Positions 1 through 12,099 of a stretch of 54,008 bases of DNA are shown here, one piece after another; position 1 is the first letter of the stretch; every line of letters begins with the position of its first letter. The notes under the pieces are model-generated. The model did no database searches and was not told the origin of the DNA. It saw only the letters and a list, made by a program, of their open reading frames with translations. Source of the DNA: Bdellovibrionales bacterium (GTDB taxonomy: Bacteria > Bdellovibrionota > Bdellovibrionia > Bdellovibrionales > UBA1609); NCBI GenBank assembly GCA_019695175.1, contig JAIBAM010000017.1, forward strand, positions 1-54,008, written 5' to 3'. A program made the position numbers and the translations under genes.

Positions 1-965
1 AAATTGCTCAATTTATTGAAAGAAAAATTAACAACCCTGAAGTCAGAGTCAGTGCGGTTAATAATAAGTTTATTTTAGAGGGTGTGGTAGATAGTCCTGA
101 AGAAAAATCACGAGCTGAGATTGTGGCCAAGATGTATGTCCCTGACGTCATTATTGATGAAGCCGTTTCGGATAAAAGGGTGTTAGAGCGTAAAGCCGAC
201 GTGGTTATTAATATGATAGGCATTCGTCCACCTCCCGATCAGGAACCAGGAAAAATCATTCAGTTGGTAGTTCACTTTGTGGAACTACAAAAAGACTACA
301 ATAAAGCCTTTCGTTTTCAATGGCGTCCGGATATAGGTGATGGATCTAGTATTGAATTTTCCAGTGGAGGAAGATCTCCTGGTGGTGTGGCCGCTACAAT
401 TACGGGAACTATTTCAAATTTATTACCAAAATTAAATTGGGCTAAGGAACACGGTTTTGCTCGGGTTTTACAAAGCACCAGTATTATCGTGGAAGATCAG
501 AAACAGGGTTCTATTAATTCAATCACTCGATTGCCATATCAAGTCGTCAATGCTCAGGGGCAACCTTCAACTAACTTTGAAGAGACAGGATTACGAGCTT
601 CCATCACACCTCGTCTTTTGGGTGCACGATCGGACAGTGTGAAATTAGAGATGTCTTTTGCAGTGAAAAGTCTTATTAGTTATTCTTCAGCCGGTCCTTT
701 GACTTCTTCCAAAGAAATTCAAACCACATTGCACGTGCGCAGCGGTCAATCAGCCGCGGTGGGTGGACTTATCTCCAATGACAGTGGAACGAATTATAAT
801 AAATTGCCCGCCGATTCCAGCCGTAACCCCATTGTTTCACTTTATGCATCTAAAGACTTTAGACGTAATCAGAGTCAATTTGTGGTTTTTGTGACTCCGA
901 TTATTAAGACGTCGGCTAGTTCAGGTTCTGAAGAAATAAAACGCAAGTTTAGATTGACCAAATAA
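1..965 (+). CDS. cpaC: Tad pilus secretin CpaC/RcpA, C-terminal part (5' end outside window)
   Basis: Outer-membrane secretin ring subunit of a Tad (Flp) pilus. The reading frame is open from base 3, so the start lies upstream; about 320 residues are visible. The first visible part (FILEGVVDSPEEKSRAEIVA) looks like a BON-type domain typical of CpaC. The remainder is the secretin domain, with an amphipathic segment around RVLQSTSIIVEDQKQGSINS, a conserved block ending SITPRLLGARSD, and the terminal signature QSAAVGGLIS followed by FVVFVTPII. The stop is 15 bp before the fused CpaE-CpaF ATPase gene, so the two are almost certainly one operon. Family assignment is confident. CpaC rather than another type II-like secretin is judged mostly from the BON domain and the neighbouring tad genes. 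Confidence 0.9.
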   Translation, partial: IAQFIERKINNPEVRVSAVNNKFILEGVVDSPEEKSRAEIVAKMYVPDVIIDEAVSDKRVLERKADVVINMIGIRPPPDQEPGKIIQLVVHFVELQKDYNKAFRFQWRPDIGDGSSIEFSSGGRSPGGVAATITGTISNLLPKLNWAKEHGFARVLQSTSIIVEDQKQGSINSITRLPYQVVNAQGQPSTNFEETGLRASITPRLLGARSDSVKLEMSFAVKSLISYSSAGPLTSSKEIQTTLHVRSGQSAAVGGLISNDSGTNYNKLPADSSRNPIVSLYASKDFRRNQSQFVVFVTPIIKTSASSGSEEIKRKFRLTK

Positions 966-980
966 AATAAGAGGTGTGTT

Positions 981-3290
981 TTGTCCGTTCATGAGAGTTG
1001 TCATTTAATTGGTGTTGTCGGTGGAAAGGGCGGAGTTGGCAAAAGCGTTTTTGCTGCCAATTTAGCTTGTGCTTTTTTACAGGAAATGCGTCTTCCCACT
1101 TTACTTATTGATATGGACTCGAAAAGCGCAGGGGATCAGAATGTTATCTTAGGACTAAAACCGCTAAAGACAATTGGGGAAATTTCCCAATTTACCGGCG
1201 CTATCACCCCTTCTGTTTTGGGTTCTCTAATAACTCCCCATTCTTCTGGGTTGGGCTACATCGGTGCCGTTCAAGGTCCAGAGCAAAGTCTGCAAGTTTC
1301 TGTGGATTTGTTCCGTAAACAGTTGTTCGTACTTTCACAACATTTTCGGTTTATTATTGCTGATTTAGGTTGTGACATGGGCCCCTTGCAATTGGGAGTG
1401 ATTGAAGATGCCAGTGCTGTGACCGTGGTGGCTTCCCCAGAAGTCCTGGTGGTGAATCAAACTCGAAAAATACTCAATGATTTGCTCAGTATGTCTTTCC
1501 CTGCAGATTTATTTCAAATTGTTTTAAATAAAATTTCTAGAACTGCTATTGATTCCCAAACTATCTCCCAATCTTTACGTCGTCCAATTGTAGGACAAAT
1601 ACCACAGGATGATATGGTGGCTTTTACAGCTTTGCAAAGATCTTCACCATTTGTTATTTCTGCACCCCAGTCACCTGTGTCATTAGCGTTTCATGAAATA
1701 GTGCGATTGCTCACAGGGGGAATTTTACAAAAATTAAAATCTACGGCGCGTCCTAAAGCAGTAACATCTTCTCAAGCTTCCGGTGTCGGGGCCATCGCCG
1801 GACAGGTCATGCCTCAGGATAAGGGTCCACGAGTTCGTGGTGCCAAAAAAGTTTTACATCCCATGACTTTATTAAAATTGCAGGTTCACTCCGGATTAAT
1901 TAAAGAAATGGACTTGAAAAAAGACATTATGAATTCTGAAGGGGATCCTGAAAAGTCAAAAGAATTACGGAACAAAACACAAAAGATTGTATCTTCTTTG
2001 ACAGATCGTCTGGCACCACAATTAAGTCGAGAAGAAAGAATCAAAATGATTAAAGAGGTTTTAGATGAATCTCTGGGGCTGGGACCCTTAGAAGAACTTT
2101 TAGCAGATCCAACCGTTACAGAGATTATGGTCAATGGTTCAGATATCATTTATGTGGAAAAATCGGGAAAATTGCAATTGTCCAATGTGACCTTCACTTC
2201 GAACACCCATTTGCGAACGATCATTGAACGAATTGTAAACCCATTGGGCAGAAGAATCGATGAAAGAACTCCCTATGTGGATGCCCGTTTAGTTGATGGG
2301 AGTCGGGTCAATGCGGTTATTGAACCTTTAGCTATTGATGGGCCGGCGCTTACGATTAGAAAATTCCCCCAAGATCGCATCACAGCCAATGATTACGTCA
2401 CACGTTTTGGTTCCTTAACTAAATCAATGGTTGAGTTCCTAAAAATAAGTGTGGAACAGGGTTTAAATATTGTGATTTCCGGCGGAACAGGATCAGGTAA
2501 AACGACATTACTTAACGTGATGTCGGGATTTGTTCCTGCAAACGAAAGAATCATTACTGTGGAAGATGCAGCGGAATTGCAATTAAAGCAAGAGCATGTG
2601 GTTCGTTTGGAAACTCGACCTGCCAATATGGAGGGTTCAGGGGAAATAACCATCAGAGATCTTATTCGTAATTCTTTAAGAATGAGACCTGACCGTATTA
2701 TTGTGGGTGAGTGTCGTGATGGGGCTGCTTTGGATATGTTGGCAGCAATGAACACCGGTCATGATGGTTCTATGACCACAGTTCATGCCAACACCCCTAG
2801 AGAAGCTGTCGCAAGGTTAGAAACTTTGTGCCTAATGGCTGGTATGGATTTGCCAGCTCGAGCTATCCGTGAACAGATTGCTGGTGCAGTGAATTTAATT
2901 GTGCAAATTTGTCGATTGAGCGATGGAAGTCGTAAGGTCATGAGTGTGACCGAGGTTGTGGGAATGCAAGGGGAAACAGTGACTTTGCAAGAAATTTTCA
3001 GATTTAAAGAAGAAGGTTTTGATAAAAATCGAAAAATTGTGGGTCAGTTCCAACCTATGGGACTTATACCCACCTTTATCGAGGAATTTGAAAGACGTGG
3101 AATTATTGTTCCACGAACTTTGTTTATGCCTAATGTATCCTCTTCTGGTGAAGAGACCTCCAAACCGTCTTCGCCTATGTCAAAACCAATGTTAAATAAA
3201 CCCAGGGTCGTCGTCGCGGGTGTCGTATCCTCATCTTCTGTTCCGGCACCTCTTAAAAAGGTTTCAGGAGACGGAGGGGGTAAGGTATGA
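981..3290 (+). CDS. cpaF: Fused CpaE (MinD-like) - CpaF/TadA secretion ATPase
   Basis: One 769-residue protein joins two Tad proteins that are usually separate. Residues about 8-250 form a MinD/CpaE-type P-loop ATPase with the deviant Walker A GKGGVGKS (15-22) and LLIDMDSKSAGDQN (about 41-54). After a linker rich in basic residues, residues about 300-720 are a CpaF/TadA hexameric ATPase: EIMVNGSDIIYVEKSG, Walker A GGTGSGKTT (501-509), MRPDRIIVGECRDGAALDML and the His box TTVHANTP (about 599-606). A 45-residue Pro/Ser/Val tail follows. In Tad systems CpaF powers pilus polymerisation and CpaE positions the machine. Start TTG 981 is preceded by GAGGTG at 971-976. The gene overlaps tadB by 4 bp. 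No stop or frame change separates the halves. Confidence 0.93.
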   Translation: MSVHESCHLIGVVGGKGGVGKSVFAANLACAFLQEMRLPTLLIDMDSKSAGDQNVILGLKPLKTIGEISQFTGAITPSVLGSLITPHSSGLGYIGAVQGPEQSLQVSVDLFRKQLFVLSQHFRFIIADLGCDMGPLQLGVIEDASAVTVVASPEVLVVNQTRKILNDLLSMSFPADLFQIVLNKISRTAIDSQTISQSLRRPIVGQIPQDDMVAFTALQRSSPFVISAPQSPVSLAFHEIVRLLTGGILQKLKSTARPKAVTSSQASGVGAIAGQVMPQDKGPRVRGAKKVLHPMTLLKLQVHSGLIKEMDLKKDIMNSEGDPEKSKELRNKTQKIVSSLTDRLAPQLSREERIKMIKEVLDESLGLGPLEELLADPTVTEIMVNGSDIIYVEKSGKLQLSNVTFTSNTHLRTIIERIVNPLGRRIDERTPYVDARLVDGSRVNAVIEPLAIDGPALTIRKFPQDRITANDYVTRFGSLTKSMVEFLKISVEQGLNIVISGGTGSGKTTLLNVMSGFVPANERIITVEDAAELQLKQEHVVRLETRPANMEGSGEITIRDLIRNSLRMRPDRIIVGECRDGAALDMLAAMNTGHDGSMTTVHANTPREAVARLETLCLMAGMDLPARAIREQIAGAVNLIVQICRLSDGSRKVMSVTEVVGMQGETVTLQEIFRFKEEGFDKNRKIVGQFQPMGLIPTFIEEFERRGIIVPRTLFMPNVSSSGEETSKPSSPMSKPMLNKPRVVVAGVVSSSSVPAPLKKVSGDGGGKV

Positions 3291-4165
3291 GTTTTTTATT
3301 CTCCGAGGATTGGTTCGTATCCCTTGTAGTGGGAGGATGTGTCTTTGTTATCTGTTATTTCTGGTCGGATCGAGTCATTCTTTTTTTTCAAACTAAAAGC
3401 TTAGGTACAAAACAAGAGGTTTTAATGGGTTTGGAAAAAATGTTGGTTGAAGTGGATCAGAAAAGAATTAAACTTATGTTATTTATGATCAGTTATGGTT
3501 TAGGAGTGATTGTTTTTCTTTTGCTTTGGCCTAATATCTTTGTGGGTTTAGGTTTTGCAGCTCTTATTTCTTTACTGGGGATTATGATTCCTAAAGTATT
3601 CATTAAAAATATGTGGGAGAAAAGATCTTCTCGGGTGGTGTACCAGATGGTTGATGGTTTGACGATTATGGGGAACAGTATTAAAGCGGGTCAAAGTATC
3701 ACTCAAGCCATGGAGCGAGTTGTAGAGAATATTAAAGGTCCGTTCTCTCAGGAAATGGGGCTCATTTTAAATAAAATTAGACTGGGAATGTCAACAGAGG
3801 TTGCAATCAGTGAATTTGCAGAGAGGATTGCACGTCAGGATGTGCAAATGTTGGCAACGGCCATTATCGTTTTAAAAGAAACCGGGGGTAATTTGGCTGA
3901 AACATTCACTACGATTGTGAGTACAATTCGAGATCGTCAAAAAGTAGAAAAAAAAATTGAAGCTCTAACCGCTCAGGGGAGCATGCAGGCATTGATTATT
4001 ACTTTTGTCCCGTTTTTTTTGATTGGTATGTTTTTAGTGGTTGAACCTGATTATATTATGCCTCTGTTTACTCGACCTTTAGGTTGGTTTTTGTTGCTTT
4101 TAATGATCTCGCTACAAACTCTGGGACTGGTTATTATGAAAAAAATAGTTACAATAAAGGTTTGA
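3287..4165 (+). CDS. tadB: Tad pilus inner-membrane platform protein TadB
   Basis: A 292-residue T2SSF/GspF-family membrane protein forming the inner-membrane platform on which the CpaF ATPase acts. Hydrophobic segments lie near the N terminus (about 10-27), at about 65-105 as a pair, and at the C terminus (about 235-290). Between them is the cytoplasmic T2SSF helical domain, including MGNSIKAGQSITQAMERV, IRLGMSTEVAISEFAERI and IIVLKETGGNLAETFTTI. The start ATG overlaps the stop of the fused ATPase (ATGA), indicating translational coupling. TadB is normally followed directly by its paralogue TadC. Here the next gene is unrelated. Confidence 0.9.
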   Translation: MSFLFSEDWFVSLVVGGCVFVICYFWSDRVILFFQTKSLGTKQEVLMGLEKMLVEVDQKRIKLMLFMISYGLGVIVFLLLWPNIFVGLGFAALISLLGIMIPKVFIKNMWEKRSSRVVYQMVDGLTIMGNSIKAGQSITQAMERVVENIKGPFSQEMGLILNKIRLGMSTEVAISEFAERIARQDVQMLATAIIVLKETGGNLAETFTTIVSTIRDRQKVEKKIEALTAQGSMQALIITFVPFFLIGMFLVVEPDYIMPLFTRPLGWFLLLLMISLQTLGLVIMKKIVTIKV

Positions 4166-4195
4166 ACATTCCTTTTGGGAGTGCATTTGGGACGT

Positions 4196-5908
4196 ATGAA
4201 AAGACTATTTTTATTTTTTATTTTTCTTATCTTTTCTAAGGCTTTTGCCATTGTGGATATGAAAAATGCAAATTATTCTGATTCTACTTTGCATCTGCGT
4301 GTTCCAGGTACATCGGGTTATGAACTGGAGGTTATACTGTCCTATAATAGTCGAACCATTTACAATGGAATTTTTGGCTTTGGTTGGTGTTCTGACTTTG
4401 AAAGTCGTCTTGAAATTACCGGCGAAGGCAATATGAAAGTGATTGAGTGTGGAGCGGGAAGTGAATTACTCTATGTTCCCAAAAAGTTTGACCCTAAAAA
4501 AGTGGATGAAACAGTCGATTATCTAGTGAAAGTGATTAAAGAAAAAAATCCTAAAATGTCTGATGATGCTCTCAAAAAATATAAACAAAACTTATCTTCT
4601 GATTCTATCATGCGTGATGAATTTGTCAGGGTTTTTAATCGTAAGGGTGCTGTAGTTGCGGGACAACCTTATTATTTTAATGGGCGAGAAAATGAATTTG
4701 TGGTGCAACTGAACAGTGGATTAGATGAAGAAAAAGAAGGTGGGTACAAACGTACGCTCCCAGACAACAAATATGAATTATTTAATAAAGAAGGTCGTAT
4801 AATAGCTAAATTTGATCGGTTGGGAAATTATTTAAAATTTTTCTATGTTAAAAACCAACTGAATAAAGTGATTGACAATCAGGGTCGCACTTTACTTTTT
4901 ACCTATGATCCTAAAACCAAAAAAGTAAAAAAAATTGTTGGACCCAGTAACATGACAGTCAATTTTACCACTAAAGGGGAAGATCTTGTTGAAGTAAACA
5001 ATGCCTTGAATCAAAAATATAAATACTTCTACGATGACGTTCATAATTTGGTGCAATTAATTCTTCCCGACGGCAAAACCAAAAAATTATCTTACAATAA
5101 AGACAAGGATTGGGTGGTTTCATTTACCAATGAAAAAGGTTGTATCGAAAAATACACCTATGTTTTGGATAGTAAAGATCCTAAAAACCACTTCACTTCG
5201 AATGTTGTTAAATCCTGCAACGGAGAGGTGACCAATCAAAATTCCTATGAATTTTTCAACAAACCACGGCTTGATAAAAATGGCGTGTATTTATCCAGAG
5301 TAAAATCCACCGTTAATGGAGTGTTAACCGATATTTTTTATCATGAAACTTTGGGAAAACCGGTAACTATCATTCGTGGTAAGTTTAAAACGGAGTACAC
5401 CTACTATGACACGGGTCTGGTTCGTACAAAAAAGGAACTGGGACAGTCGACGAGCTTTGAATACAAAAACAACTGTAATAAAGTATCCAAAGTTCAGATA
5501 GATTATTTTGATCTTTCAGGTTCTGAAAAAGAAGGAAAATCCACCAAATCGCGTTTGCACCGGAGTGTGTTTACAAACTTTAATTACGAAAACCAAAAAT
5601 GCAATTTACTGTTTGCCCAAAATTCAGACGGCATGTCTGTTAAAATACAATACGATTCGAGGGGAAGAATTTCCATCATAGAAGATCAATCAAAAAAAAT
5701 AGTTAAAATCAAATATGATGAAAGATATGGTAAACCTGAAATTGTCAACCGCCCTGGCTTAGGCTCCATAAAAGTGACCTATAAAAATGAAAATGAGATT
5801 AAATCTGTGGATAGTAAGGATGGACCAAAAGTGGCCGTGCAGGTGGCCAGTATTTTTAATAGTCTGCTGGAGATCATTGCACCAGCTTCTGCAGAGTCCA
5901 ATCTTTAA
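4196..5908 (+). CDS. Exported YD/RHS-repeat protein
   Basis: A 570-residue protein with a signal peptide (MKRLFLFFIFLIFSKAFA, cleavage after about residue 18). An N-terminal RHS/DUF6531-like region contains LHLRVPGTSGYELEVILSY and GIFGFGWCSDFESRLEI. Several YD-type repeats follow, for example FDRLGNYLKFFY, RTLLFTYDPKTKKVKKI, TSFEYKNN and QYDSRGRISIIED. RHS/YD repeats normally build a beta-strand cocoon around toxin or adhesin domains. Here there is neither the hyperconserved RHS core end nor a toxin tail; the protein simply ends ASAESNL. ATG 4196 was chosen over the in-frame TTG 4175 because it puts the signal peptide at the N terminus. The gene starts 30 bp after tadB and is probably co-transcribed. 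A role as a Tad-associated surface or periplasmic protein is inference. Confidence 0.8.
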   Translation: MKRLFLFFIFLIFSKAFAIVDMKNANYSDSTLHLRVPGTSGYELEVILSYNSRTIYNGIFGFGWCSDFESRLEITGEGNMKVIECGAGSELLYVPKKFDPKKVDETVDYLVKVIKEKNPKMSDDALKKYKQNLSSDSIMRDEFVRVFNRKGAVVAGQPYYFNGRENEFVVQLNSGLDEEKEGGYKRTLPDNKYELFNKEGRIIAKFDRLGNYLKFFYVKNQLNKVIDNQGRTLLFTYDPKTKKVKKIVGPSNMTVNFTTKGEDLVEVNNALNQKYKYFYDDVHNLVQLILPDGKTKKLSYNKDKDWVVSFTNEKGCIEKYTYVLDSKDPKNHFTSNVVKSCNGEVTNQNSYEFFNKPRLDKNGVYLSRVKSTVNGVLTDIFYHETLGKPVTIIRGKFKTEYTYYDTGLVRTKKELGQSTSFEYKNNCNKVSKVQIDYFDLSGSEKEGKSTKSRLHRSVFTNFNYENQKCNLLFAQNSDGMSVKIQYDSRGRISIIEDQSKKIVKIKYDERYGKPEIVNRPGLGSIKVTYKNENEIKSVDSKDGPKVAVQVASIFNSLLEIIAPASAESNL

Positions 5909-5949
5909 TTTCTTGCGAGAAATTTATTTTCTAAGGGGAGAGTGTGCCT

Positions 5950-6231
5950 ATGAAGATTTTTAAACTTGTAAATAAAATATTTTTTTGTTTTTTATTTGTG
6001 ATTTTGATCTTTACCCATTTTAAAGTGACTGCAGATGAAAGTCCAAATCCTCAAACTACTGAAGCTACTACTGCAGCAGATGGTTGTTGTACTAAAAATA
6101 TAACTTCTGGAAATGTGACAGATTCGCGACCGGGAGAAGAGTATCAGAATGCTCTAAAAAAAGCAGGTTTGCCGGTGCTGGATTTTAATGGTTCAAAAAG
6201 ACCAGGAGACTCAGAAGAGGATTCTAAGTAA
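5950..6231 (+). CDS. Small exported protein with a Cys-Cys pair
   Basis: A 93-residue protein of no recognised family. The first 28 or so residues (KIFFCFLFVILIFTHF inside) form a signal peptide ending near KVTADES. The mature part of about 65 residues is polar, rich in Thr/Ser/Asp/Glu, with a vicinal cysteine pair (DGCCTKN) and an acidic tail. ATG 5950 is preferred because AAGGGGAG at 5933-5940 is 9 bp upstream; the alternative GTG 5944 would sit too close. It follows the YD-repeat gene by 41 bp in the same direction and may be its partner, for example a small secreted or surface component. This pairing is inference. Confidence 0.6.
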   Translation: MKIFKLVNKIFFCFLFVILIFTHFKVTADESPNPQTTEATTAADGCCTKNITSGNVTDSRPGEEYQNALKKAGLPVLDFNGSKRPGDSEEDSK

Positions 6232-6500
6232 GCTAAGTAGATCCAAAGTGTGCAAGGTTGCCTGTTCTAGGAACTAATAATAAGTTTTGTCTAGAAAAAC
6301 TTGTTTAACTTTTCAAATGGAAAAATTTCTGACAAATAGCTGCTGATGTTTTCTCTCCGAGTTGGCATCATGAGTTTTCTTGACTTACAAAGCCTCCCAG
6401 CGGAAATTAATAAAATTAAGTTTTCTTAAGGTCCAAATTGAAAGTCTGGCATAGCTTTTATTATTTCAAAATTCTTATTGAAAGGAAGATTTTTTAATCA

Positions 6501-7490
6501 ATGATTGTGTTTGCGGTAAATATCCATTCGGGTGGAGGAAAAGTTCTTCTTGATGAACTAATCTCTTCAGAACCATTCGGTAAGATTACGCATCTCTATC
6601 TCGATCGTCGTTACCAAAATAATTCTATCCCTTCTACAGTTGAGACTTTGTCTTATCCCCCTACCATAAAAGCTCGGTTGCAAGCGCAATGGGATTTACG
6701 AAAAATGTTTAAAGTTAACCCTGGTTTAAAGAAGGGGCCGGTTTTGTTTTTTGGCAACTTACCCCCATTTTTTAAACTACGCGTGGAATCCATACTCTAC
6801 CTTCAAAATTGCTTTAACTTAAGTGGTATTTCATTACCGAAAGATAGTTTAAAAGAAAATCTGCGAAATCGGATGGAGCGTTACCTCTTAAGAATCTTTT
6901 CGAAGAATTATCAAAAAATTTGGGTTCAGTCAGAATGGATGGTGCAATTGGCAAAGAATAATTTTCCTGAAAAGGAAATTTATAAAAAACCCTTTATACC
7001 AGCTCTACCTGAACCAACTCAGGTTGAAAAAATTTATGATTTTATTTCGGTTACAAGTTTGTCTTCACATAAAAACTTGAGGCTTTTACTTCAAGCATTG
7101 GAATTGCTTGATTTGAAAGTAACTTCTCAAGTAAGAGCGCTCATCGTATTAGATAATTCCGTCAATATCACAGAGGTCCGTCTGCCAAAGTTAAAGCACA
7201 TTCATCTTACTTTAAGATCCAAACTGTCAAGACAGGATCTCTTCTTAGAATATCAAAGAAGTAAAATTGCTGTTATCACAAGCTTACTTGAGTCCTTTTG
7301 TCTGCCAATTTTTGAGGCTTTACATTTTGGTTTGAAAGTTATTTGCCCAGCGGTTGGCTACACTTTAGAATTAAAAAATGAAACTTTGCAATATAATGTT
7401 GATTCAGCAAAAGATTTGTCTGAATTGCTTGAACAAAATCTGAGAGCTTCTTCGAAAAAAATTGTTAGCAGTGCTGATGGTAAATGTTAA
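6501..7490 (+). CDS. Glycosyltransferase, GT4-like (family 1)
   Basis: A 329-residue cytoplasmic GT-B fold glycosyltransferase that would transfer a sugar from a nucleotide donor to a surface glycan or protein. Visible family features are the N-terminal Rossmann strand with a glycine-rich loop (VNIHSGGGKVLLDELI), the start of the C-terminal domain (FISVTSLSSHKNLRLLLQAL) and the EX7E motif ESFCLPIFE near residue 258. It is slightly short for the family. The gene stands alone, with 269 bp before and 99 bp after, and a purine-rich AAAGGAAG is 12 bp from the ATG. The acceptor cannot be read from the sequence. LPS or pilin/flagellin glycosylation are possibilities, given the surface machinery nearby. 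Confidence 0.8.
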   Translation: MIVFAVNIHSGGGKVLLDELISSEPFGKITHLYLDRRYQNNSIPSTVETLSYPPTIKARLQAQWDLRKMFKVNPGLKKGPVLFFGNLPPFFKLRVESILYLQNCFNLSGISLPKDSLKENLRNRMERYLLRIFSKNYQKIWVQSEWMVQLAKNNFPEKEIYKKPFIPALPEPTQVEKIYDFISVTSLSSHKNLRLLLQALELLDLKVTSQVRALIVLDNSVNITEVRLPKLKHIHLTLRSKLSRQDLFLEYQRSKIAVITSLLESFCLPIFEALHFGLKVICPAVGYTLELKNETLQYNVDSAKDLSELLEQNLRASSKKIVSSADGKC

Positions 7491-7589
7491 TAACAACTTT
7501 AGAGTTTTTACACATAGTAGCTGTTAACTCGGAGTCTTAGATTCTGACTCTAAGATTATTTAAACATCAGGGTAATTAGTGGAGGTCTT

Positions 7590-8420
7590 ATGAAATTTGA
7601 AACCACTCATTTTAAAAATTTGATTATCAATCGACTTCAAGAAGTTCAGTTGAAGGCGCAAAAGGAATTTGAACAAAATCAAAGTCAGTTAGGAATTCGA
7701 TTTGTAGTGATTGATAATCTCCTTCCAGAAATTGAAGCTAAAAAAATCAATGAAGCTTTCAATGCTAAAAACCCAGCCTGGCGTGAAATGAGTAGTTTTC
7801 GTGAAAAGAAGTTAACAACCAAAAGGTATAATGAATTTGATGCTATTTTAGGTGAAATTACTTTTGCTTTTCAGGAGCCAGAAGTTTTAAAAACTATTGA
7901 AAAAATCACTCAAGTTTCAAATCAAATTCCTGATTCTGGTCTGTACGCCGGTGGTTTAAGCATGATGCGTACCGGAGATTTTTTGGACCCGCATATTGAT
8001 AATTCCCATGATCAAAATCGTGAGCTTTATAGAAGACTCAATCTCTTATATTATGTGTCGCCAGACTGGAAAACTGAAGATGGTGGGCATCTGGAGCTTT
8101 GGGATCAAGCCGTAAAAAATAATATTACCATTGAATGTCGATTTAATCGTTTGGTTTTGATGGAAACAAATAATTTATCCTGGCATTCAGTTTCACCTGT
8201 CAAACGAAAAGGTGGATTGAGAAAATGTGTTTCAAATTACTATTTTTCTAAGGAGTCCCCTCTTTCCTATGAATATTTTCATGTGACTTCATTTAATGGA
8301 AGGCCAGAACAGAAATTAAAAAGAGTATGGTGTAAAGTTGATAATTTTTTAAGGTCAACCGTTCGAAATGTAAAACCATCGGGGTTGGCCAAAAAAGATT
8401 TGTTTGAAGCCAAACCTTAG
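7590..8420 (+). CDS. 2-oxoglutarate/Fe(II)-dependent oxygenase (prolyl-4-hydroxylase type)
   Basis: A 276-residue protein with the double-stranded beta-helix core of the 2OG-Fe(II) superfamily. The iron triad is HID (H135, D137) and the distal H199 in NLSWHSVSP. The 2OG-binding basic residue is probably R211 in GGLRKCVSNYYF. GGLSMMRTGDFLDPHID and LNLLYYVSPDW-EDGGHLELWD are typical of the P4Hc branch. No signal peptide is visible, so it should act in the cytoplasm. Substrates in this branch include protein side chains and small metabolites or sugars. Proximity to a glycosyltransferase hints at glycan or protein modification but proves nothing. AGTGGAGG lies just before ATG 7590. Confidence 0.85.
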   Translation: MKFETTHFKNLIINRLQEVQLKAQKEFEQNQSQLGIRFVVIDNLLPEIEAKKINEAFNAKNPAWREMSSFREKKLTTKRYNEFDAILGEITFAFQEPEVLKTIEKITQVSNQIPDSGLYAGGLSMMRTGDFLDPHIDNSHDQNRELYRRLNLLYYVSPDWKTEDGGHLELWDQAVKNNITIECRFNRLVLMETNNLSWHSVSPVKRKGGLRKCVSNYYFSKESPLSYEYFHVTSFNGRPEQKLKRVWCKVDNFLRSTVRNVKPSGLAKKDLFEAKP

Positions 8421-8430
8421 GAGCTCCTAA
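8417..8430. repeat. 14-bp perfect palindrome over a stop codon
   Basis: TTAGGAGCTCCTAA is a perfect palindrome that includes the TAG stop of the 2OG oxygenase gene. Just upstream, GTTTG and CAAAC around AAGC (8402-8415) form a second small hairpin. There is no T-tract, so it is not a standard intrinsic terminator, but it could slow decay of the transcript's 3' end. Confidence 0.5.
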
Positions 8431-8760
8431 CGTATTGATTGATTTTACAAAGCACTTTTTTGATGGTCTAGTTTAACTTTATAAGTCATCAGTTCTCTAG
8501 AAAGAAGAGAGTCTGTTCGAATTTAGGTTATCCAGCTGTTGAGATCTTAGACATGTCGTCTTTTGAAGGTGTTTTTATCTATATGAAATCACTCAATAAT
8601 TTAAAAAACCATCTCTTCTCAATATGGTACAATTCTCGCTTTGAGACTTAAAGTAAGACATTAAATAAGAACCTGTTCGGAAGTGAGACGCCTCAAATAG
8701 GAATTTTATTATCAGGATCAGATGGCGTGTTGTTTCCAATCAAGTTCCAAGGAGAATAAA
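8421..8760. other. 340-bp spacer holding diverged copies of the dispersed repeat
   Basis: No convincing gene is seen on either strand. The spacer holds one recognisable copy of the dispersed repeat (8665-8694) and a weaker same-strand match at 8507-8537 (AGAGTCTGTTCGAATTTAG). The promoter of the small exported protein gene at 8761 should lie here, but no clear -35/-10 pair could be identified. Confidence 0.5.
8665..8694 (+). repeat. Dispersed repeat copy 1 (diverged)
   Basis: TAAGAACCTGTTCGGAAG followed by TGAGACGCCTC matches the left half of the family seen at 10663, 41920, 42709, 46086, 53017 and 53162. It lies about 65 bp upstream of the small exported protein gene. Confidence 0.5.
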
Positions 8761-9030
8761 ATGAAATCGATTTGTAACAGAAAAAAATTAAAATTACTGG
8801 TGTTTGGGATAAGTTTTGTGTTCTTACCAACAAATTTTATTTTCGCCTCAACGAATGCTAAAGGATCTGCAAATGCTAGAATATCTAAGGCAGTACCAGC
8901 AGCATGTCCTTTATCAGCGGGTACCTTAGCTCAGAATCCAAACAATACCCAACTTGCTTTATCTCTCTTTAATGGATCTCCCCCAGGAAGCCCTATTTTA
9001 CCAGGATTAGCTACCAAAACCACACGCTAA
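8761..9030 (+). CDS. Small exported protein
   Basis: An 89-residue protein of no recognised family. The basic start (MKSICNRKKLKLL) leads into a hydrophobic stretch (VFGISFVFLPTNFIFA) that is a clear signal peptide, with likely cleavage after FIFAS or nearby. The mature part of about 60 residues is small and rich in Ala/Ser/Pro/Asn, with a single cysteine (AACPLS) and a PGSPILPG stretch. ATG 8761 is chosen because AAGGAG at 8749-8754 has ideal spacing; an in-frame ATG at 8722 would bury the signal peptide. The gene stands alone in a long AT-rich spacer. A hairpin (CACGC...GCGTG, about 9022-9043) overlaps its 3' end. Confidence 0.6.
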   Translation: MKSICNRKKLKLLVFGISFVFLPTNFIFASTNAKGSANARISKAVPAACPLSAGTLAQNPNNTQLALSLFNGSPPGSPILPGLATKTTR

Positions 9031-9095
9031 GTTTACTGCGTGGAGACTGTGATATTTGGATTTTCTACATTTCAAGTAGACCTCTCTTGGTCGTG

Positions 9096-9437
9096 CTAAG
9101 GCTCATCATTTTCAACCCGATGTTGAGTCTTTTTGTTTTCAATTTTATCCTCAATACTTTGTTCGTACTCAGAGCTGCGTTTTAAATTGAGGTCATCCCA
9201 ATTATATTTGGCTTTGGGAAACTTTTTATTCATCTCTGTGGAAATCCATTGGACTCCTTTACGAATGAGTTTAACTCCATTTTGTGCTGTGGACTGGATA
9301 GGTGTCATAAAAGCTGAGGTATGAATAAATCCATGAATGTGTTCCTCTAAGGTTATCGATCGCCACTCTACTTGCAGTAAAGCTACAAAAAGTAGGGAAA
9401 CTAGAAAGGTTTTTAAAAAAAACATAAGATCGAGCAT
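9096..9437 (-). CDS. Small membrane-anchored protein, unknown
   Basis: A 113-residue protein not recognised. One hydrophobic N-terminal segment (LMFFLKTFLVSLLFVALLQV) acts as an anchor or uncleaved signal. The remainder is a hydrophilic, charged domain ending in a Lys/Glu-rich tail (YEQSIEDKIENKKTQ). ATG 9437 was chosen over an upstream in-frame ATG because a perfect AAGGAGG sits 5 bp before it on the minus strand (9443-9449). The gene is convergent with the small exported protein gene and in the same direction as the response regulator upstream (stop at 9598). Confidence 0.6.
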   Translation of the reverse strand: MLDLMFFLKTFLVSLLFVALLQVEWRSITLEEHIHGFIHTSAFMTPIQSTAQNGVKLIRKGVQWISTEMNKKFPKAKYNWDDLNLKRSSEYEQSIEDKIENKKTQHRVENDEP

Positions 9438-9597
9438 GGAGCCTCCTTGCGAGTTAATTAATTCCATTCATTTAAATGTATCTTTTTTAGGATATGAATT
9501 TGTATTCGCATCCTTACGACTTTCCCTTTTTGACACCTTTTCATTTTTATACAGTCTTTGAATTGTTATCCGATATCATAGTGAATCTGTTTATTTT

Positions 9598-9963
9598 TTA
9601 TGTCAAATGGGCTGCGTCTATCGCCTGGAGCAACTCTTCTTTTTTAAATGGCTTAACCATGTAATGGCAACATCCGGCCTCTAAAGCCTTCATAACCATC
9701 GTTTCCTGATCCAAAGTAGAGCAGGCGATAATTTTAATGTGTGGGAACTCCTTTAAAATTTCAGCGCTGGCCTCAATACCACTTTTTTTTGGCATTACCA
9801 AATCCATTAGAACAACATCGGGGCGCGTTTGACGAACTATTTTTAGCGCTTCTTCACCATCCTGGGCTTCGCCAACGACAATGATTTTGCTATCATGGAC
9901 ACATTGGCGTATAACTTCACGGATAAACGGAGCGTCATCTACAATTACAAGTTTAATTGCCAT
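9598..9963 (-). CDS. Single-domain response regulator, CheY-like
   Basis: A 121-residue receiver domain with no output domain. The acidic pocket is D9-D10, the phospho-acceptor is D54 (VVLMDLVMP), the conserved Ser/Thr is at 82-83 (ACST) and the lysine is K104 (MVKPF). It would be phosphorylated by a histidine kinase and act by binding a partner, as CheY does at the flagellar motor or as adaptors do in phosphorelays. No kinase or che gene is beside it, so the partner is unknown. A TTGGGA-17 bp-TATAAT promoter ends only 7 bp before the ATG, and no Shine-Dalgarno sequence is visible, so the mRNA may be leaderless. It is divergent from the DedA gene. Confidence 0.92.
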   Translation of the reverse strand: MAIKLVIVDDAPFIREVIRQCVHDSKIIVVGEAQDGEEALKIVRQTRPDVVLMDLVMPKKSGIEASAEILKEFPHIKIIACSTLDQETMVMKALEAGCCHYMVKPFKKEELLQAIDAAHLT

Positions 9964-9970
9964 AGGGTTT

Positions 9971-9999
9971 ATTATAGTGTTTTTGAGTCAATCTCCCAA
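9971..9999 (-). promoter_or_regulatory. Sigma-70-like promoter of the response regulator gene
   Basis: On the minus strand TTGGGA (9999-9994), a 17-bp spacer and a perfect TATAAT (9976-9971). The expected start of transcription, 6-8 bp further on, coincides with the ATG at 9963, implying a leaderless or nearly leaderless mRNA. Confidence 0.55.
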
Positions 10000-10016
10000 A
10001 TGATTTGGAGTTTTTT

Positions 10017-10664
10017 TTGGAAGCATCCGCTTTAGCCAACCATTTAATCGAGTTTTTACAGGGTCTAGATGGAATTACAGCCTATGCTGCCATCTTAGGA
10101 TTACTTCTTATTAGTGGCTTAGGGGTTCCCCTTCCAGAGGATATAACTCTTATAGGTAGTGGAATACTAGCTGCAATGGGAGCCATCTCATTACCTGGGG
10201 CAATTATTGCTGGTTTTATTGGAGTTCTGCTCGGTGATGCATTTTTGTTCACTCTGGGACGAAAGTACGGTCGAGCTGTTTTTGATCTGCCCGGTTTTCG
10301 GCGAGTTTTTACCAGTCATCGGATTGCCTTGGCTGAGGAGAAAGTTTTAAGTAACTCGCAATTCATTTGTTTTACGGCGAGGTTTTTACCCGGTTTGAGG
10401 GCTCCGATTTATTTGACGGCTGGTGTGTTGGGTGTCCGACCCACAATATTTTATTTGTTGGATGGTTTGGCCGCGCTCATCAGTGTGCCTCTTTGGGTTG
10501 TTTTAGGTTGGTGGTTTACATTAAATGTAGATGTGGATACAGGTCTGTACTATGCAAAGAAGGCTCAAATTTATTTAGTTATCACAGTACTTTGTGTCGT
10601 ATCTGGCTACGTTTTTTATCGTTACTGGCGTCGTGAAAAAAAAACTGAAATGGACGTAGGTTAA
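10017..10664 (+). CDS. DedA-family membrane protein
   Basis: A 215-residue polytopic inner-membrane protein of the DedA/SNARE-associated (VTT) family; members flip or transport polyprenyl-phosphate or phospholipids. Family signs are GLGVPLPEDITLIGSG near the N terminus, GVLLGDAFLFTLGRKYG, and FTARFLPGLRAPIYLTAG with the conserved Arg and Pro residues. Four to five hydrophobic segments are visible, with a basic C-terminal end (YRYWRREKK). TTG 10017 is chosen because TTGGAG at 10005-10010 is a well-spaced ribosome site; the upstream TTG at 10005 would overlap it. It is transcribed divergently from the response regulator across about 53 bp. Confidence 0.88.
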   Translation: MEASALANHLIEFLQGLDGITAYAAILGLLLISGLGVPLPEDITLIGSGILAAMGAISLPGAIIAGFIGVLLGDAFLFTLGRKYGRAVFDLPGFRRVFTSHRIALAEEKVLSNSQFICFTARFLPGLRAPIYLTAGVLGVRPTIFYLLDGLAALISVPLWVVLGWWFTLNVDVDTGLYYAKKAQIYLVITVLCVVSGYVFYRYWRREKKTEMDVG

Positions 10665-10690
10665 GAGTTTGTTCTGAGGAGTGCCGTCAG
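10663..10690 (+). repeat. Dispersed repeat copy 2
   Basis: It begins inside the DedA stop codon (AAGAGTTTGTTCTGAGGAG followed by TGCCGTCAG). The downstream sequence CTACTGGGCGGAAATTTT also resembles the continuation of copy 7 (minus strand, 53135-53165), so conservation extends to roughly 60 bp. A small GTCG...CGAC hairpin lies at about 10741-10753. Confidence 0.5.
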
Positions 10691-10753
10691 TTCCTACTGG
10701 GCGGAAATTTTTTTAGAACGGTGTTGTCAGCGAGTTAGTTGTCGTTTGGCGAC

Positions 10754-11350
10754 TTAGTTGCCGGTTTCGGATCCTCTATTTTTTAAATAATCTTTTAGAA
10801 ATTCAGTAAATTTTATTTGTATTCGGTCTAGCCTTACTTTAATCCCAGAAGAATCACCCTTTTTTATTTCAGAGTACCAAAGGGGGATATCAATTGCTTT
10901 ATCTGGAATCGACATACAGTTATTATAAACAACATCTTCATTACTCAAATAATGAGTCAAAACTTCAGGGTTTAAATTTAATTCATCAGGTTCAAACCTT
11001 GGGATCTGTTCGTGAATAAAAACAAACAACGTTGCAGATAGGGCCTCTTGTTCTAAAGGCGAAAGTTGGTTTTTAAACCAAGGCAGGAATTTATATAAAA
11101 AATCGAGTTGTAGTAAGGTTTGCTCTAAATGTTGGATGTATTTGGCCTCACTGGAGGAGGTTTTAGAACGGTTAATAGGGCTACTTCTATGGCTATCTGT
11201 CGCATGATTTAAATCATGCACAATATAGGATGAAGTTGTTAAGTAAATTATATTTTTTGTAGAGAACTCAATAAAATATATATTATCAAAGATTCTGTTA
11301 ATCACAAAGTCTATGATTTTGATGGGTGTGAACGTGAAATAAAAGTTCAT
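10754..11350 (-). CDS. Hypothetical protein
   Basis: A 198-residue protein that I do not recognise. The N-terminal 50 residues are rich in Ile/Phe/Tyr without a clean transmembrane segment. A polar stretch (DSHRSSPINRSKTSSSE) follows, then a mostly helical region (YIQHLEQTLLQLDFLYKFL). No cysteines pair up and no catalytic motif is apparent. ATG 11350 was taken; TTG 11353 directly before it is the alternative, and no good ribosome site precedes either. It lies downstream of, and in the same direction as, the exported protein gene at 11458-12099. Base composition is AT-rich like the surrounding accessory zone. Confidence 0.5.
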   Translation of the reverse strand: MNFYFTFTPIKIIDFVINRIFDNIYFIEFSTKNIIYLTTSSYIVHDLNHATDSHRSSPINRSKTSSSEAKYIQHLEQTLLQLDFLYKFLPWFKNQLSPLEQEALSATLFVFIHEQIPRFEPDELNLNPEVLTHYLSNEDVVYNNCMSIPDKAIDIPLWYSEIKKGDSSGIKVRLDRIQIKFTEFLKDYLKNRGSETGN

Positions 11351-11457
11351 CAAATGAACTGGGGCATTTATGAATTTCTCCTTTAGTATTTTGAAATCGA
11401 GGAGAGGATTTCGTCGTTGATTATTTCCTGTGCTGTTTAAGAATATTTCAAAATAAT

Positions 11458-12099
11458 CTATGAGGTATACAAATCTAAAAAAAATGAGTTAACTTTTTTG
11501 TAATTAATTTTAGACGGTCTTTTAATTAAGGACTCCATATTTAAAATTAACAAATCTAATATTTCACTATGGTTTAAAAAGTCTGTGAGTTGGACGTCAC
11601 TAGGAGTGCTTGGTGGTTTGATAGAAAGGAAAGGTTCGATCTCAGCATTTGGAGGGGGAAGCCTTGATTTTAATTCTTTAAGTTTTCTTAGCATGGTTTT
11701 GAAATGTTCAAAAAATATGGGATGTGTGAAGGAATCGGTCTGACCTCCTTGAACGAGGTGTTTTGTGAGCCCATAGTGAAAATCTAGAATGGGTAAAAAA
11801 TAAGCCGATATTTGATTTCCCGAAAACTTAGGGTCCTTAAAAGCTTGTAAAAATATTTTGTACTGGTCTAGTAACTGACTCATTTGGTGAAATTCAAAAT
11901 CGGAAAAACGATATTGTGATTTATGAATTCTTGGTGTGATTGCTAAAATTTCCAAACAAGAACTAGAGAGAGTGTCCCGTCTCGTTCCCTGAGGGCGTTT
12001 TGTTCTCGCGAAAGCATAGGGTTCAGCCATTGATATGACTGTTAAAATCCATATTAAGGATAGTAAGATCCAATGATTTGTTTGTTTTAAAATAATCAT
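11458..12099 (-). CDS. Hypothetical exported protein
   Basis: A 213-residue protein, family not recognised. The N terminus (MIILKQTNHWILLSLIWILTVISMAEPYAFA) is a signal peptide with probable cleavage after AFA, followed by a basic stretch (RTKRPQGTRR). The mature domain of about 180 residues is predicted helical from its leucine/lysine periodicity (MSQLLDQYKIFLQAF, FKTMLRKLKELKSRL), with one Cys (SSSCLEI). It would be periplasmic. It lies 107 bp upstream of the gene at 10754-11350 in the same direction and 166 bp downstream of mlaD, and may be co-transcribed with either. No function can be assigned. Confidence 0.6.
   Translation of the reverse strand: MIILKQTNHWILLSLIWILTVISMAEPYAFARTKRPQGTRRDTLSSSCLEILAITPRIHKSQYRFSDFEFHQMSQLLDQYKIFLQAFKDPKFSGNQISAYFLPILDFHYGLTKHLVQGGQTDSFTHPIFFEHFKTMLRKLKELKSRLPPPNAEIEPFLSIKPPSTPSDVQLTDFLNHSEILDLLILNMESLIKRPSKINYKKVNSFFLDLYTS

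Follow-up and report, generated by a model that had tools for sequence, protein, structure and literature searches.

The YD protein beside TadB in a Bdellovibrionales Tad operon belongs to the hit locus and is predicted to form a toxin-free Rhs shell

The genes of a tad operon usually run in the order tadA-tadB-tadC. In a stretch of 54,008 nucleotides from a Bdellovibrionales bacterium (contig JAIBAM010000017.1; hereafter the window, meaning the whole stretch analysed), tadB is followed by a gene for an exported YD-repeat protein and then by one for a small exported protein, and no tadC lies within the operon. Where, then, is TadC, and what does an exported YD protein do in its usual place? 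A first-pass annotation had proposed that TadB either works alone or has its TadC elsewhere, and had named the arrangement a candidate for a distinct contact machine. We took up these proposals by searching the genome for TadC, comparing the locus across the phylum, and modeling the two exported proteins.

The Tad operon and its separate TadC

The window features relevant to this question are listed below. The coordinates and lengths first assigned to the tadB, YD, and small-protein frames are correct, and the three frames are consecutive.

3..965, + strand: C-terminal part of the Tad secretin (RcpA/CpaC; Bd0112 counterpart), Secretin PF00263 with E 2.8e-20, truncated by the contig end
981..3290, + strand: fusion of a CpaE/TadZ-type (ParA/MinD) domain and the TadA/CpaF ATPase, 769 aa (Bd0111 counterpart), with CbiA at 11-217 and T2SSE at 366-652
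3287..4165, + strand: TadB, 292 aa (Bd0110 counterpart), T2SSF PF00482 with E 7e-19, directly 3' of TadA and kept in 48 loci
4196..5908, + strand: exported YD/RHS protein, 570 aa, Bd0109 ortholog, with DUF6531 and RHS_repeat and 44% identity to the B. bacteriovorus kdesi protein
5950..6231, + strand: small exported protein, 93 aa, with a Cys-Cys motif; positional Bd0108 counterpart by place, signal-like N-terminus, and Cys pair
8722..9030, + strand: possible counterpart of the second small exported protein of relatives, by position and signal-like N-terminus only, without a sequence match

The 769-aa fusion (981..3290) also matches the TadA family TIGR03819 (E 1e-98). Window-length matches to this fused CpaE-TadA protein occur in most of the relatives' loci. 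The first bases of the window fall within the secretin gene, at a contig break. The N-terminal part of the secretin opens a second contig (C8), on its opposite strand; this end of C8 and the start of the window share an exact 127-base overlap, with the same reading frame on both. Upstream of the secretin, C8 encodes CpaB (RcpC), three membrane-anchored proteins that occupy the place of TadE/F-type genes, an A24 prepilin peptidase (TadV; Peptidase_A24 E 9e-14, L179 2946-3479), a short Flp2-like protein, and the Flp1 pilin (Flp1_like E 1.4e-9). Via the 127-base overlap, the TadA ATPase, TadB, secretin, and CpaB of a Tad (type IVb) pilus fall into one cluster, and the locus described here is the 3' end of the single Tad pilus operon. 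TadV, described as missing from all Bdellovibrio genomes then known (PMC5430801), is also present in the loci of 21 relatives.

We then searched the genome assembly (2.6 Mb, 56 contigs, 97% complete) for TadC. It contains six T2SSF stretches: two pairs within two-domain proteins of the PilC/GspF type (405 and 417 aa), the TadB of the window, and one 308-aa protein. The latter (C45:12472-13398, T2SSF E 2.6e-16) is the sole further single-domain T2SSF protein besides TadB and is TadC, unlinked to the tad operon; all T2SSF and T2SSE matches in the genome yielded no second complete tad locus. With TadC found as a separate gene, the Tad platform therefore keeps its TadB-TadC pair, encoded in two places. 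The absence of TadC, as first annotated, thus holds for the window's operon and fails for the genome, where a single TadC exists. The proposal that TadB works alone is not supported, and the alternative, a TadC encoded elsewhere, stands both across the family and in B. bacteriovorus. Relatives of TadC, at 52-78% identity and E 4e-58 or better, are found in 46 of the 47 family genomes, the 47th (G012) giving a TadB cross-match only. The closed B. bacteriovorus kdesi chromosome has TadC at 335 kb and TadB at 1,023 kb, which places TadC ~687 kb from the hit locus.

The location of the YD gene in the usual tadC slot invites the reading that YD functionally replaces TadC, with TadB working without it. 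The near-universal TadC of the family argues against this, as does the YD protein itself, which is exported and has no T2SSF domain. The tadC of strain HD100, Bd0470, is described as sharing an operon with Bd0474; a transposon mutant of this tadC cannot attach to prey (PMC6561027), a further point against replacement. We regard the replacement as largely refuted and scarcely tenable. Sequence searches of the PDB returned no relative for either TadB or TadC.

The surroundings of TadC are themselves conserved. DUF192 and FHA genes follow it in 27 of 30 loci, and the other three loci are cut short; in the organism of the window (C45:12472-15342, L007) the conserved cluster consists of TadC, DUF192, and an FHA/YscD-like, PAS-containing protein. 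A Tad-FHA signalling link may exist.

The YD gene beside tadB across the phylum

The start of the YD protein was assigned by comparison with relatives. ATG 4196, 30 bases after the tadB stop, is preferred over TTG 4175 because orthologs begin at the equivalent ATG; the resulting N-terminus, MKRLFLFFIFLIFSKAFA then IVDMKNANYS, agrees with the starts of relatives. The small-protein ATG (5950) lies 41 bases after the YD stop. A Pfam search finds DUF6531 and one RHS_repeat in YD and no toxin domain, which bears out the first description of an exported, toxin-free YD protein. The 93-aa protein carries the signal-peptide-like N-terminus and CC motif first attributed to it, and profile searches give no family match. 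An Rfam search of window positions 1-12000 returned nothing at gathering level near the pair.

YD orthologs are present in 45 of the 47 family genomes, most of which have a single full-length copy, and in 136 of 144 genomes drawn across the phylum. Among 49 Bdellovibrionota loci taken from named records, one of which (L082) is cut by a contig end, TadB adjoins YD in all 48 that are testable, always in the order secretin, CpaE/TadA, TadB, YD. Loci from distant families show TadB directly beside YD in 18 of 20, one of these 18 (L171) being cut short; the exceptions have a 1.4-kb gap (L166) or no tad gene within 15 kb (L174). The full four-gene order recurs in nearly all of the distant loci. The linkage of YD to tad genes first noted in the window is thus general, and YD occupies the slot usual for tadC across the phylum.

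Two side observations concern this comparison. A 917-aa protein in one distant locus (L158 5100-7853) matches both the CpaE-TadA and the TadB profiles, such that TadA and TadB are apparently fused. Among Burkholderiales, Paraburkholderia and Variovorax encode Rhs proteins of 1511-1539 aa (L090 7956-12491, L094 8004-12623) with 29-31% identity to YD and flanks that give no match to the window's tad profiles; the mature N-terminus of the L094 protein is LVDMKNANYSHTWIDI, as in Bdellovibrio.

The arrangement matches a locus already known from Bdellovibrio. The published hit (host-interaction) locus and TAD operon (PMC3818213, PMC4267844, PMC5430801) comprise bd0109-bd0119 and the neighbour bd0108, in the gene order of the window (PMC5430801). 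Bd0109, a YD protein of 550 residues, carries a signal peptide; Bd0108 is an exported protein of 101 residues, and the two are co-transcribed (PMC3818213). Identity of 44% to the kdesi protein and a shared gene location mark the window's YD protein as the ortholog of Bd0109, and the YD and small-protein pair is the hit locus. The 93-aa protein is the counterpart of Bd0108 by position, export signal, and cysteine pair, with no detectable sequence similarity to it; tblastn searches with it in relatives gave no match. Glycosyltransferase and 2OG-Fe(II) oxygenase genes (window 6501-8420) separate it from the possible second small exported gene. In many relatives such a second gene lies ~400-700 bp 3' of the first, and the two are ~190 bp apart in B. 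bacteriovorus kdesi.

A predicted Rhs shell and its fast-evolving partner

Structure prediction, originally suggested for the YD protein with its small neighbour, was run on the two separately with AF2. The YD model, built from 39 sequences, has a mean pLDDT of 85.6. Its best fold match is the T6SS Rhs core 8qja (Z 26.4, rmsd 2.6 over 336 residues), in which model residues 18-471 align with residues 31-400 of a 1021-residue chain. The model has a small helical insertion (residues 101-146), invariant cysteines at positions 65, 85, 316, and 341, and a conserved C-terminal helix (544-565), and it contains no equivalent of an autoprotease or toxin after the shell. YD would thus be a toxin-free Rhs shell that matches the first half of a T6SS Rhs core. 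Of the features of an Rhs effector, the Rhs/YD beta-shell is present in the predicted structure and the variable C-terminal toxin domain is absent. We considered whether YD ends in a toxin and rejected this: there is no toxin family match, and conservation among relatives extends to the last few C-terminal residues. A pilin-type fold for Bd0109 residues 20-63, from published threading (PMC3818213), is not favoured, as this stretch lies in the DUF6531 and Rhs-core-aligned part.

The YD gene is part of a pilus operon, carbohydrate binding has been suggested for YD proteins, and Tad tips exist in Myxococcus (PMC12075869), all of which would suit a Tad pilus tip or an adhesin that touches prey. 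Against such a role, YD has a Sec signal without a prepilin-type N-terminus, and tagged Bd0109 is periplasmic in E. coli (PMC3818213). Moreover, published Tad tips are minor-pilin complexes, and separate predicted tips are reported for Bdellovibrio (PMC12075869). We consider a tip or adhesin quite improbable.

The small gene is as constant in place as it is variable in sequence. In all 42 loci with enough flank, a 70-140-codon frame starts -3 to 69 bases from the YD stop, and the small proteins of those relatives that are listed have a signal-like N-terminus; of the tadB-YD-small protein order that had been singled out for checking, the step from YD to the small protein is therefore retained in every one of these closer loci. 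At least two cysteines follow residue 20 in 42 of 42 loci, against 3.9 such loci expected from background cysteine frequency, the loci being related by descent and not independent trials; the cysteine number is even in 39 of 42. Distant families often have a frame 3' of YD with one cysteine. In three distant loci (L166, L167, L171) the frame after YD encodes a helical, Lys/Ala-rich protein without a signal peptide. The cysteine pair is therefore an order-level feature and not a phylum-level one.

The sequences diverge rapidly. Small proteins encoded beside YD proteins of 84% identity (the 80-90% range) share 37% identity. In the 45-50% range of YD identity this falls to 16%, compared with 13% for shuffled sequences. 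TadB identity keeps pace with that of YD. Among close relatives, then, the small partner evolves far faster than YD and TadB. The model of the small protein alone is of low confidence apart from a signal helix and a short helix at 62-71. This result would be in keeping with the disorder measured for Bd0108, which has a C56-C59 disulfide and binds Bd0109 weakly (Kd 45 uM, about 3:1; PMC4267844).

A shell beside a variable, disordered peptide suggests the main rival to the accessory model that we set out below, namely that YD is a carrier: once YD had taken up the small protein in the periplasm, the Tad machine or pilus would bring that protein outward to prey or sister cells, for which it would be a signal or effector. 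The YD fold matches that of Rhs shells, which are known to serve as cargo cages, and encapsulation has already been proposed for Bd0108 (PMC4267844). The rapid evolution of the small protein relative to YD and TadB is also consistent with a carrier, for which hypervariability would reflect prey- or kin-specific recognition. However, fast drift is also usual for disordered proteins, and the model spans about half of a T6SS Rhs core (570 vs ~1040 residues), such that a closed cage from one chain is not assured. Moreover, loss of bd0108 affects the predator's own growth mode (PMC3818213). Delivery by a carrier is accordingly a tentative and somewhat unlikely reading. In a broader form, the hit locus would be a lineage-wide device for recognition or delivery and more than an internal regulator: a reduced Rhs shell without a toxin would carry a hypervariable, cysteine-paired cargo under diversifying pressure onto the Tad machine or through it. 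We consider this rather unlikely.

Proposed role and comparison with known systems

We favour a model, at a probability of roughly 0.6, in which YD and the small protein form a periplasmic accessory of the Tad machine that sets or reports pilus extension and retraction, thereby linking contact with prey to the growth decision. YD would be exported by Sec and fold, as modeled, into a curved Rhs-type beta shell closed by the conserved C-terminal helix. The small protein would bind this shell as a periplasmic peptide that is largely disordered and probably held together by a disulfide. The pair most likely acts at the periplasmic side of the Tad machine, where its state would report pilus extension or retraction to the growth decision, and TadC from its separate locus would be the usual inner-membrane partner of TadB.

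The accessory model draws on the observed gene order, conservation, place of TadC, cysteine pattern, and rate contrast, and on the modeled fold. The pair binding, piliation, and growth phenotypes come from published work on B. bacteriovorus. Binding of Bd0109 to Bd0108 was demonstrated by fluorescence quenching and protease protection; deletion of bd0108 lowered piliation and a 42-bp deletion raised it; and bd0108 mutations allow growth independent of prey, whereas no deletion of bd0109 could be obtained (all PMC3818213). The weakness of the Bd0108-Bd0109 binding (45 uM) counts against the model. The organism of the window is known as an assembled genome alone, and a predatory or growth-switch phenotype would be by analogy with B. 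bacteriovorus.

The pili measured in bd0108 mutants were type IVa (PilA) and not Flp (PMC3818213); the link to the Tad pilus therefore rests on gene order, and action of the pair on this pilus itself is our inference, as is the direction in which the signal runs. The PilA content of the altered pili would equally suit a pair that regulates type IVa and not Tad pili, with its place in the tad operon serving only shared expression. Yet the strict phylum-wide link is to tad genes, including in loci very distant from Bdellovibrio, which makes this explanation improbable.

In Bdellovibrio, the classical switch between predatory and prey-independent growth is the hit locus, which works by an unsolved mechanism. 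The near-universal presence of YD in the Tad operon of the whole phylum, with TadC split off, suggests that YD serves the Tad machine and is not a Bdellovibrio speciality. The small partner, once called unique to Bdellovibrio, emerges as a family defined by position, in which a cysteine pair is required and the sequence is otherwise free, and it offers about forty natural variants on which binding and species specificity can be tested.

Among known systems, the Kil system of Myxococcus xanthus is likewise a Tad-like machine of a predator, and the Bdellovibrio Tad genes have been counted as Kil-like (PMC8460266). Compared by description, it differs in that the passages on Kil that were consulted do not name a YD protein as a component. 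The T6SS Rhs cores (8qja, 8qjb, 7q97) share the beta-shell over YD residues ~18-471 (Z 24-26), whereas YD is about half their length, has no matched autoprotease or C-terminal toxin, is Sec-exported, and is linked to Tad and not to a T6SS.

The closest likeness is to the hit locus and TAD operon of HD100, in gene order, domains, the separate TadC (Bd0470), and the small exported Cys-pair protein after YD. Unlike HD100, the organism of the window has a TadV-type prepilin peptidase (A24) in its operon and glycosyltransferase and 2OG oxygenase genes downstream of the locus, and its small protein has CC instead of the CXXC of Bd0108, to which it has no detectable similarity. The distinct contact machine first suggested for this DNA is thus the published Bdellovibrio locus, a known machine with an unsolved mechanism and not a new one. 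To that description our analysis adds the phylum-wide gene order, the position of YD in the tadC slot, its predicted Rhs shell, and the presence, cysteines, and fast evolution of the small partner among close relatives.
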